Assembly (NCBI GenBank): GCA_944389465.1
Contig: CALXML010000010.1
Location: forward strand, 1-36,971
Origin: an uncultured Alphaproteobacteria bacterium
GTDB lineage: Bacteria > Pseudomonadota > Alphaproteobacteria > Rs-D84
Direction: 5' to 3'
Length of the DNA: 36,971 nt
Made by a program: the position numbers and the translations under genes
Shown: positions 27,161 through 30,581 of the stretch, in pieces
Position numbering within the stretch: position 1 is the stretch's first letter
Layout: every line of letters starts with the position of its first letter
Notes under the pieces: model-generated
Told to the model about the DNA's origin: nothing
The model's input: only the letters and a program-made list of their open reading frames with translations
Databases searched by the model: none

Positions 27161-27303
27161 TGTAAATTGATTTTTTAATCAATTTAAACAAATGCAAACA
27201 ATGTTATTTAATGGCTGATTTAAGGCCCTTAAACCATATCCCTATGGATTTTTATCCATCACATTGTTTGCGGCCCCCGCGTTAATCGTGGGGGTTTTGT
27301 TTT
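27161..27303 (+). ncRNA. Candidate small RNA of about 140 nt, four hairpins
   Basis: The stretch has its own promoter and terminator, and no open reading frame. Predicted folds, all perfect: AAATTGATT/AATCAATTT (27164-27172, 27177-27185); GCAAACAATG/CATTGTTTGC (27194-27203, 27262-27271), which encloses TTTAAG/CTTAAA and CCATA/TATGG hairpins; and the terminator at 27274-27303. I recognise no known family. The 3' end runs antisense to the last codons of the convergent ftsA-rpe gene. Confidence 0.65.
27274..27303 (+). terminator. Terminator of the sRNA, overlapping the end of ftsA-rpe
   Basis: CCCCCGCG (27274-27281) pairs with CGTGGGGG (27287-27294), one G:U pair and a 5-nt loop, followed by TTTTGTTTT. 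The minus-strand stop codon of ftsA-rpe (27282-27284) lies in the loop. Confidence 0.9.
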
Positions 27304-29063
27304 AATAAACTGTGTACCGCCAATGGAAAATCATTGCTGTGTGCCAAATATGAGCCACTGACCAATAAATCAGCACCGGCCGCCCAGCACTTTTGTGCCG
27401 TTTGGGCGTTTATGCCACCATCAACTGAAATTAAATATTTTAATCCATACTTTTTGCGTGTGGCCGCCAATATTGATATTTTGTGCAGGCAACTGTCGTT
27501 AAATGTTTGGCCCGCCGCACCGGCAGGAACAGCCATTATCATAACTTCATCAATTTCACGCAGAATTGGTTTTAATATTTCAACTGATGAATCAGGGTTT
27601 AATGCAACGCCCGCCCGTCGGCCGGCCGCGCGTATCATACGCAGTGCCGCACGAACGCCGGATGTGTTTGTTGAAACAATAATTGTGTTTGCACCGGCTG
27701 CGATTGCGTCAGACGCCCATACATCAGGACTTTCTGTCATTAAATGCACATGCAGGTGTGCGGTTGTATGACCACGGATGTATTTTAATTCTGATATACT
27801 GCCACGGATGTTTTCAACATACAGACCATCCATTATATCAACGTGTATCATTGATATTCCGCCCGCACGAAACAGTGAATATGTTTCGGCACTTTTCATA
27901 TCAAAGCACAATGTACTGGGCATAATAGGAACAAAACGTATTTTTTGTTTCTTTTGTGGTTTGAATGCAGATGTGATTTTATTGTAAAAATTTTTAATTT
28001 TGTCGTGGCGGGCATTATATGCCGCACGGTGTGCGGATTCTGCACCCCAGATATATTCAGACAACGCGCTGATGGATGCACTGCGATGATTGTTTGTTAC
28101 GTATATTCCAAATAAATTTTCAATAAAATCAGATATGCCATCTATTTCCGCACCACCACCAGATATTATTATTCTGTTTGGCAGTTTATGTTTGAATGGG
28201 GCAGCACAGGCGTCCTTGATTTTTCCGCACAGTTCAACCATATTTGGCAATACAATTCCGTTAACATCAGAACGTGAAAAATCAAATGCAGTGTCGGCGG
28301 GGGTGAATCTGTCCATTTCCTTGGGCATTAAACTGGCGACGTTGCGTTTTATGCGTTCTGCATCATCAAAATTTATGTTTAATTTTTCAGATATATCACG
28401 TGTTATATCAGTTCCACCAAATGGAATTTTTTGAAAGAATATTGGTCCGTTATCCAACCATATTGAAACAGTTGTAAATTGTGCACCAAAATCAATGTAC
28501 ATATCTGCACTTTTTTTAACGTGCGATACAGAATTTTGCAAAAAATGTGGGTCATAGAAAGAATAGGGCTGGATATACGCAGCATGCAATTTTGATGTTA
28601 TTTCGCCCATTGCATCAGATGAATAAAATATTGCGCCAAAAATGGCAGTTAACCCAAAATCCGTGTATCCAATGGGCGAATATAATTTAGGGATATTTGG
28701 TGTTTCATAACGCAATGGAATTATGTGCATGGGATAATAACCATCGGGTGGGGTTATTTGTGATAACATCGCGCTGATGTCGGATTGCGTTATTTTATGT
28801 TCACCACGCCAATTTTTTGTTTTTGGGCTGATTTTAAATGTTGCAGGCCCTATATTACCCGTTATATATGCGTTATCAAAATGGTCGCCAATTTGACGTT
28901 CCAGTTCATTGATTACCTGTTTAAGTGCATATACAGTATCAAAACTGTCAATTTCATATGTTGCTGATTTTACCAATTTGCCACTGCGTACACGATGCGC
29001 CATACCGCGGACACCACTGGTGCCGATGTCCAGACACAGAAAAGATGAATCAGACAGGTTCAT
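27282..29063 (-). CDS. FtsA fused to ribulose-phosphate 3-epimerase (FtsA-Rpe)
   Basis: One 593-aa open frame joins two proteins. Residues 1 to about 345 are FtsA, the actin-like anchor of FtsZ: LDIGTSGVRG (11-20), a 1C/SHS2-type region (about 85-180), DFGAQFTTVSIW (191-202), GGTDITRDI and IIISGGGAEIDG (298-309). Residues 353-368 form a basic amphipathic helix like the FtsA membrane-targeting tip. Residues about 377-590 are a TIM-barrel like Rpe: MPSTL, IHVDIMD (H407, D409), HLM (H440) and VDGGI (D548) keep the metal and catalytic positions. The NPGFGGQ loop is changed to PAGAAGQ (513-519) and the Asp before HLM is His438, so activity may differ. No ftsZ follows. It starts 3 nt after ftsQ. 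Confidence 0.88.
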   Translation of the reverse strand: MNLSDSSFLCLDIGTSGVRGMAHRVRSGKLVKSATYEIDSFDTVYALKQVINELERQIGDHFDNAYITGNIGPATFKISPKTKNWRGEHKITQSDISAMLSQITPPDGYYPMHIIPLRYETPNIPKLYSPIGYTDFGLTAIFGAIFYSSDAMGEITSKLHAAYIQPYSFYDPHFLQNSVSHVKKSADMYIDFGAQFTTVSIWLDNGPIFFQKIPFGGTDITRDISEKLNINFDDAERIKRNVASLMPKEMDRFTPADTAFDFSRSDVNGIVLPNMVELCGKIKDACAAPFKHKLPNRIIISGGGAEIDGISDFIENLFGIYVTNNHRSASISALSEYIWGAESAHRAAYNARHDKIKNFYNKITSAFKPQKKQKIRFVPIMPSTLCFDMKSAETYSLFRAGGISMIHVDIMDGLYVENIRGSISELKYIRGHTTAHLHVHLMTESPDVWASDAIAAGANTIIVSTNTSGVRAALRMIRAAGRRAGVALNPDSSVEILKPILREIDEVMIMAVPAGAAGQTFNDSCLHKISILAATRKKYGLKYLISVDGGINAQTAQKCWAAGADLLVSGSYLAHSNDFPLAVHSLLKQNPHD

Positions 29064-29066
29064 TTT

Positions 29067-29747
29067 TTACTTAATCAATATTCGTGCACTGTCGCGCATA
29101 TCAATTATATCCACATCCTTGGCCAATAACTGATGGTTATTGTTCAGGACCATTAAACTGGCAATTGCAGCGGCGGGGTCATCTTCGGGTAACATAACGG
29201 TGATACCGCCCAATGTATGCAAATTCCAGCGTCTGTTTTCTATAAATTCCAAATAATCCAAATCTGCAATAATGCCCTGTGCGGCATTTATTATATCAGA
29301 TATATCATTTGGCACATCGCCACGGAATACAATTGTATTTGGATTTTTGGTATCTGTTGGTTTGTTTACAATTGTGCCATCCGCAGATAATGGGTAATAC
29401 TGCAGTCCATCTGTCCATTGGGCAACGGCCTGATATAATTGAACCTGAATGGACAGGTTGCCGTTTGGTAATCTGCGCGTGGCCGCATTGCGAACACCGG
29501 CAGTTGATGCAATGCGCGCGTTTATTTGTTCCAGTGTTTGACCATATGCACGGGTTTTTGGTGCAACGGCCGCCGCCGCCGCGATGGATGTTAAATCCTT
29601 GTTCGGGGTGTCGGCAGATATACTTAAACTGCGGACATAGGCCAATTTACTGTTACCTGTGCCAATCATAACAATGCGGGTCGCAAAATATACGGCCAAT
29701 AATATCGCCACAATGAAATAAAGCCAAAACCATATTGAACGTTTCAT
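29067..29747 (-). CDS. ftsQ: Cell division protein FtsQ
   Basis: FtsQ is a bitopic inner-membrane protein that links early and late divisome components. The 226-aa protein has a short basic N-terminus, one membrane helix (about 5-28), a POTRA-like segment (about 35-110) and the beta domain. FtsQ-type motifs are TRRLPNGNLSIQVQLYQAVAQW (about 94-115) and ENRRWNLHTLGGITVMLPEDD (about 169-189). Sequence identity is low but motif order and the ftsA partner 3 nt downstream support it. The usual upstream murB/ddl genes are absent. Confidence 0.85.
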   Translation of the reverse strand: MKRSIWFWLYFIVAILLAVYFATRIVMIGTGNSKLAYVRSLSISADTPNKDLTSIAAAAAVAPKTRAYGQTLEQINARIASTAGVRNAATRRLPNGNLSIQVQLYQAVAQWTDGLQYYPLSADGTIVNKPTDTKNPNTIVFRGDVPNDISDIINAAQGIIADLDYLEFIENRRWNLHTLGGITVMLPEDDPAAAIASLMVLNNNHQLLAKDVDIIDMRDSARILIK

Positions 29748-29796: not shown

Positions 29797-30177
29797 TTAA
29801 TTTGCACGCAGTAAATATCCGCGTCTGAACATACATTTACGGTACGCGCCAACAGATTTTGATGTTGTATTGCGCGGAACGGATAATAATGCACGTTGGC
29901 CAACATCCCTGTATTCATTTGATTGAAATGTTACCCATAATCCATCCCAGTCGGGCATAATACTGCTTTGGTTCGGGGCCAACAGTTTGGAAATTCGTGA
30001 ACGGGGCATATATGATGGTTTATTTATGCCAAGGCACGCCTTGTGGTCACGGACAAATTGTTCCATTGTAACGGATTCATTTTCCCAATTTAATATGGTT
30101 GCATCATCAATACTGCCACGGTTGGCCGATGCACATGCAGATAAAATCAGGGCAAATACAATGTATTTAATTCTCAT
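29797..30177 (-). CDS. Small lipoprotein, unknown function
   Basis: The 126-aa protein has a short signal with lipobox LSAC (Cys15). The mature part contains Cys48 in HKACLG and a C-terminal YRKCMFRRGY segment. This two-cysteine, GY-ending pattern recurs in small alphaproteobacterial lipoproteins, possibly with a disulfide. No family function is known to me. It lies upstream of ftsQ on the same strand with a 49-nt gap, and is divergent from the secretin unit. Confidence 0.7.
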   Translation of the reverse strand: MRIKYIVFALILSACASANRGSIDDATILNWENESVTMEQFVRDHKACLGINKPSYMPRSRISKLLAPNQSSIMPDWDGLWVTFQSNEYRDVGQRALLSVPRNTTSKSVGAYRKCMFRRGYLLRAN

Positions 30178-30254: not shown

Positions 30255-30581
30255 ATGGCATTAACAGTTCAAAACTTTATAAAACTGGCAAATTTGTATA
30301 ATCAGATGACAATGGTTATGTCTGCGATTTGTGTGCAAAAGGGCGGAATTGCAATGGAAAATTATGTTGGACGCTTCTTTTTGGCCGATGTGTTGGAATA
30401 TGTTTATGAATATGGACGCAGGTTGTTGGAAAAAAATAAAAATGCAGTTCCAGCAAATGTTGCTGCGGTAATTAAGCGGTTCGGTGAACAATATAATCGG
30501 GTGCGGGATTTAACCACACCAACACAAAAACCGTTTTATGAAATGACACTGGAAGAATTTGAACGGGTTATGAATATTTAA
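30255..30581 (+). CDS. Hypothetical small protein upstream of the pilus secretin
   Basis: The 108-aa protein is largely helical and unrecognised. Visible features are a Met/Val-rich first third, YVGRFFLADVLEYVYEYGRRLLEKN in the middle and a C-terminal acidic end (EMTLEEFERVMNI). AGGA precedes the ATG at a good distance. It is 29 nt before the secretin gene on the same strand, so a pilus-related accessory role is possible but unsupported by sequence. Confidence 0.6.
   Translation: MALTVQNFIKLANLYNQMTMVMSAICVQKGGIAMENYVGRFFLADVLEYVYEYGRRLLEKNKNAVPANVAAVIKRFGEQYNRVRDLTTPTQKPFYEMTLEEFERVMNI

Follow-up and report, generated by a model that had tools for sequence, protein, structure and literature searches.

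In an uncultured alphaproteobacterium of the order Rs-D84, the cell division gene ftsA and the epimerase gene rpe form one genuine fusion gene, and this fusion is an ancient, fixed trait of the host's family. More surprising than the fusion itself is that the family conserves FtsA while lacking FtsZ. The family consists of gut bacteria with tiny genomes. The stretch analysed (36,971 nt, hereafter the window) makes up one contig of a genome of 954 kb (G000), 99% complete, whose relatives are named Candidatus Enterousia, a group placed in Alphaproteobacteria, order Rs-D84 (PMC12306168). The fusion gene, its parts and the adjoining ftsQ were located as follows.

27282-29063, minus strand: gene for the FtsA-Rpe fusion (593 codons and a stop), both domains recognised by profile and homologues known
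28029-29063, minus strand: FtsA actin-like domain (residues 1-345), with the nucleotide-site motifs D12/G14, D191/G193 and GGG302-304, matched by profile and fold
27933-28028, minus strand: linker (residues 346-377) with a basic, probably amphipathic helix (343-367 in the model), the former FtsA membrane tip
27285-27932, minus strand: Rpe TIM-barrel domain (residues 378-593), with S383, H407, D409, H440, D548 and a phosphate loop at 514-519
29067-29747, minus strand: ftsQ (PF03799, 41.7 bits), upstream of the fusion gene with 3 nt between

The fusion gene was read as a single frame, open from ATG to stop. Pfam searches placed FtsA (PF14450) on residues 189-322 with 56.1 bits (cut-off 31.8) and Ribul_P_3_epim (PF00834) on residues 381-573 with 149 bits (cut-off 21.1), and the NCBIfam names for both halves, FtsA and Rpe, agreed with Pfam. 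These matches, together with the helix analysis, supported an initial sequence-only reading of this DNA, which had proposed one minus-strand frame leading from FtsA, via a basic amphipathic helix, into an Rpe barrel. The structure modelling suggested by that reading gave the same picture. An AlphaFold model of the fusion, built from 49 family members, had a mean pLDDT of 90 and a pTM of 0.61, the latter indicating that the FtsA and Rpe lobes are not rigidly placed relative to each other. When the PDB was searched with this model, FtsA crystal structures matched the N-terminal part best and Rpe structures, including 2fli, matched the C-terminal part. Beside ftsQ lay two genes, at 29797-30177 (minus strand) and 30255-30581 (plus strand), encoding proteins of 126 and 108 aa with no Pfam match, the former with a lipoprotein-like start.

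We then considered how widely the fusion occurs. The fusion query matched 175 of the 183 genomes in the host's Rs-D84 family, spanning 13 genera, with identity to the window as low as 31%. Frames were full-length or nearly so in all unsplit family matches listed; the sole two-part case (G184) was split at a contig end, and seven of the eight family genomes with no match were less than 90% complete. Among the matches listed from a class-wide sample of 387 Alphaproteobacteria, full-length fusions were confined to the host's family. A PF00834 search of the genomes of the host's genus revealed a single Rpe in each, always fused, with the exceptions of G026 (two fusions) and G005 (70% complete; none). 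The host genome had no separate rpe, the fusion being its sole PF00834 match, and the fusion was also its sole FtsA. A candidate second FtsA (C4:34983-36032), the other PF14450 match, was identified as MreB (467 bits), and apparent fusions of 874 and 512 residues in G048 were overlapping frames in a GC-rich genome. A literature search of an open-access library returned no report of an FtsA-Rpe fusion. The sequence-only reading had also raised the prospect of close relatives with separate genes; every family member with a readable locus was fused, and separate genes were seen only in other families. In those unfused relatives the two genes stand side by side, an arrangement that would ease an assembly or frameshift artefact joining them. 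However, the unbroken frame recurred in well over 100 independent assemblies of the family, 31-86% identical to the window and including a single-contig genome of 1.0 Mb with a full-length fusion, so that an artefact is refuted and its probability negligible.

The unfused loci pointed to the origin of the fusion. Elsewhere in the order, families f2, f3 and f6 had separate ftsA and rpe genes with abutting or overlapping ends. The join was TAATG, a 1-nt overlap, in G036 and G039, and ATGA, a 4-nt overlap, in G042, while in G035 the genes stood about 14 nt apart with GGAGG, a Shine-Dalgarno (SD) sequence, between them; in family f4 an ABC-transporter-like gene intervened. The unfused ftsQ-ftsA-rpe loci resembled the fusion locus in gene order and Rpe active site, and differed from it in that ftsA and rpe were separated by a stop codon and an SD, and in having ftsZ elsewhere in the genome. 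Since the sister families keep the two genes separate and mostly abutting, the fusion probably arose through loss of the ftsA stop codon. Comparison of the arrangements suggests that this loss occurred in an ancestor of the family, between abutting or overlapping and translationally coupled genes. The unfused FtsA proteins of relatives terminate in an amphipathic helix, and this membrane tip would thereby have become the internal linker of the fusion. We rejected a different route, in which ftsZ once lay between ftsA and rpe and its deletion created the fusion: what separates the two genes in f4 encodes an ABC transporter, and ftsZ is located at another place, next to a phage connector gene. 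An SD-like motif preceded the internal junction starts in 0 of 110 fusions; in the host genome, 45% of ATG ORFs with 150 or more codons had such a motif, as did 4.8% of internal ATGs. This makes separate, SD-led translation of Rpe from the fusion gene unlikely.

The Rpe half retained the features of the enzyme. Its barrel superimposed on 2fli with a TM of 0.91 and 1.4 Å over 209 columns at 35% identity. In NCBIfam it scored 170.7 bits against the Rpe subfamily model NF004076, over the cut-off of 165, and 151.9 bits against the Rpe equivalog TIGR01163, under the cut-off of 212.6. Across 110 distinct family sequences, H407, H440 and D548 were present in all and D409 in 109, bearing out the retention of these metal and catalytic residues noted from the window alone, and S383, M411, M442, M510, G515, G518 and Q519 were kept at 98-100%. 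The His before HLM in the sequence-only reading (H438) proved to be a family trait (98/110). That reading had also described a change of the phosphate loop from NPGFGGQ to PAGAAGQ. The loop is indeed altered, but xPGAAGQ is the consensus for the family, with P in 108/110, and P514A is private to the window. The unfused Rpe of f3 and f6 already has A for F, so this change predates the fusion and is not its consequence. As in known Rpe (2fli, 1rpx and E. coli Rpe), the barrel was complete and had every metal and catalytic residue as well as three methionines of the active site; unlike known Rpe, the fused barrel has no free N-terminus and carries the xPGAAGQ loop. Transketolase (Tkt) and RpiB were present in the host genome and transaldolase was not found with E. 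coli queries, in agreement with a published Enterousia reconstruction (PMC12306168). E. coli queries also revealed no convincing PRPP synthase in G000, although Tkt, Rpe and RpiB are retained. Given the essentially invariant active site and this gene content, the fused Rpe is probably an active enzyme working with transketolase and RpiB.

The sequence-only reading had placed the epimerase at the membrane next to FtsZ, a placement contradicted by the genomes. FtsZ was absent from the host genome in PF12327 and PF00091 searches, and PF00091 FtsZ was found in 0 of 183 family genomes, as against 17 of 18 in the remaining families of the order. A lineage HMM, built on E. coli FtsZ together with FtsZ sequences from the order and the class and run in six frames with no filters, was negative in G000 and in the gap-free single-contig genome G060 (1.0 Mb); two contigs (5.8 kb) were masked in G000, and G060 was unaffected. 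A diverged FtsZ was rejected, with the Pfam domain, the six-frame lineage HMM and the T4-loop motif all negative. In f2, f3 and f4, ftsZ lay near a phage head-tail connector gene, and an Enterousia genome retained this gene and its neighbours without ftsZ at that ancestral position. The genomes read retained FtsK, FtsW, MreB, RodA, MraY, MurG and a transpeptidase of the FtsI/PBP2 class distinct from MrdA, and the ftsQ-ftsA order was kept. That the fusion and the loss of FtsZ coincide in this family counts as one evolutionary data point and does not prove cause. In another family (f5), G038, which is 93% complete, had no match to FtsZ, Rpe or the fusion and possessed both signal recognition particle (SRP) GTPases; its loss of FtsZ is possibly independent.

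Several further observations were made in these genomes. The phage head cluster (L205:2021-12290, equal to G000 contig C2:80021-90290), which comprises a connector (PF12236), a capsid protein (PF19821) and a terminase, was conserved across the order's families, near ftsZ in the three families named above, and is possibly a domesticated prophage or gene transfer agent. Mur ligases (PF08245) were missing in 168 of 183 family genomes, against four or five in the majority of FtsZ-bearing relatives; MraY, MurG, FtsW, RodA and transpeptidases were kept despite this absence (G000 and G060 read). For the SRP GTPases Ffh and FtsY (PF00448), none of the Enterousia genomes, the gap-free G060 among them, gave a strong match, while both were present in 18 genomes of the family's other genera and in 18 of 18 from other families. 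Loss of the signal recognition particle throughout the clade, if true, would be remarkable.

The identity of the FtsA half was assessed by profile, fold and position. It scored 76.6 bits against the FtsA equivalog TIGR01174 (NCBIfam), under the cut-off of 175.85, and MreB itself scores 67 there; the half therefore owes the name FtsA to its fold ranking, its ftsQ neighbour and its positional orthology. The best 19 PDB matches of the N-terminal part were all FtsA (TM by target 0.66-0.75), PilM first appeared at rank 43 (TM 0.55), and MreB was nowhere in the top 50. Within the 110 family sequences the nucleotide site was conserved (D12 in 106, G14 in 110, D191 in 106, G193 in 109 and GGG in 106-110). 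D12, the first nucleotide-site Asp, was lost in four sequences, all of genus g26, and D191 was altered in four, suggesting that ATP use by the FtsA half may not be universal in the family. The linker (346-377) had a mean identity of 30%, a length of 31-35 in most members and a net charge of about +10 per 32 residues. The hydrophobic moment of the helix was 0.68 in the window, 0.63 as a family mean and, similarly, 0.55-0.77 in unfused FtsA; taken one by one, 49% of members had a shuffle p below 0.05.

We compared FtsA identity at matched Rpe identity. At 35-45% Rpe identity, FtsA identity was 24.1 in the family and 23.5 in FtsZ-bearing relatives, and at 55-70% it was 41.2 and 43.5, respectively. 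The ratio thus equals that of FtsZ-bearing relatives, indicating that FtsA is not decaying and shows no sign of relaxed constraint. Two FtsA segments were shortened, the first to 15-16 residues in nearly all members where E. coli and every FtsZ-bearing relative have 24-30, and the second, which spans E. coli R286, to 11-17 residues compared with 15-24; polymer contacts may differ as a result of these two indels. E. coli FtsA R300 was uninformative as a marker of FtsZ binding, being also missing in the FtsZ-bearing f4.

The fusion shared with the FtsA of E. coli, T. maritima, S. aureus and Vibrio its actin-like fold, nucleotide motifs and ftsQ neighbour, and probably an amphipathic helix, C-terminal in those proteins. 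Unlike known FtsA, its helix is internal and followed by a 216-residue enzyme, its two segments are shortened, and it operates in a cell without FtsZ. In other bacteria, FtsA forms membrane-bound, curvature-sensing double filaments that the authors liken to MreB (PMC7613929). The absence of FtsZ, with MreB and septal peptidoglycan enzymes kept, is shared with Chlamydia, whose division depends on MreB, and with Wolbachia supergroup J. In contrast to these two, which also lack ftsA among the intracellular bacteria tabulated (PMC10591338, Table 2), the Rs-D84 family has retained and conserved FtsA, and in the open-access literature the combination of FtsA without FtsZ looks unusual.

Taken together, these data lead us to consider it probable that the fusion is a two-domain, single-chain housekeeping protein, combining a divergent FtsA for FtsZ-independent division with the cell's only, competent Rpe. 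The epimerase, judged by its active site and the gene content, would be catalytically competent and act with transketolase and RpiB, while the FtsA half would bind nucleotide and membrane and organise FtsQ, FtsW and FtsI, probably with assistance from MreB. The fusion itself may be neutral, its halves doing separate jobs in one polypeptide held at the membrane. Alternatively, the FtsA half may have abandoned division altogether and be kept solely to anchor an essential epimerase at the membrane or to assist its folding, with MreB dividing the cell as proposed for Chlamydia. The loss of FtsZ with retention of MreB, RodA and MrdA, the missing Asp in genus g26 and the two indels are in line with this, but the pace of FtsA evolution, measured against Rpe, equals that in FtsZ-bearing relatives, its nucleotide-site positions are 96-100% conserved overall and the ftsQ-ftsA order is retained, and we regard a purely anchoring role as unlikely. 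A continued role of the FtsA half in septal wall synthesis without FtsZ is favoured.

Other explanations assign the barrel a part in division. Rpe forms dimers or hexamers, and an FtsA-centred divisome without FtsZ could be imagined in which the Rpe domain multimerises membrane FtsA, partly replaces the FtsZ scaffold and ties a sugar-phosphate enzyme to cytokinesis; we think this distinctly unlikely. Slightly less probable again is that the fusion was selected because cross-linking of membrane FtsA by Rpe multimers made FtsZ dispensable. This would fit the shared family-level distribution of fusion and FtsZ loss, and 2fli, the barrel's best structural match, was deposited with 12 chains; however, both changes may come from one ancestor as a single coincidence, and G038 lacks FtsZ without having the fusion. 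The sequence-only reading had also entertained a repurposed sensor or structural cap, which the conservation of all catalytic positions disfavours. A non-catalytic barrel reporting the pentose-phosphate level to division would suit the deviating phosphate loop and the physical link to a division protein, yet the metal and catalytic residues are invariant or nearly so, the loop change is already found in unfused relatives, and this is the only Rpe in a genome that keeps Tkt and RpiB, making such a sensor very improbable.

The accepted role of FtsA is to tether FtsZ to the membrane. Because this family has no FtsZ, its FtsA probably works in an FtsZ-free division process, and from the sequences the half is better termed an FtsA homologue than an FtsZ tether. 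The fusion is a rare fixed union of a cytoskeletal protein with an enzyme of central metabolism, and it may couple metabolism to division. A family that keeps a conserved FtsA without FtsZ offers a natural test of FtsA's own role, and of the ability of FtsA filaments to organise the synthesis of septal wall where no Z-ring exists.
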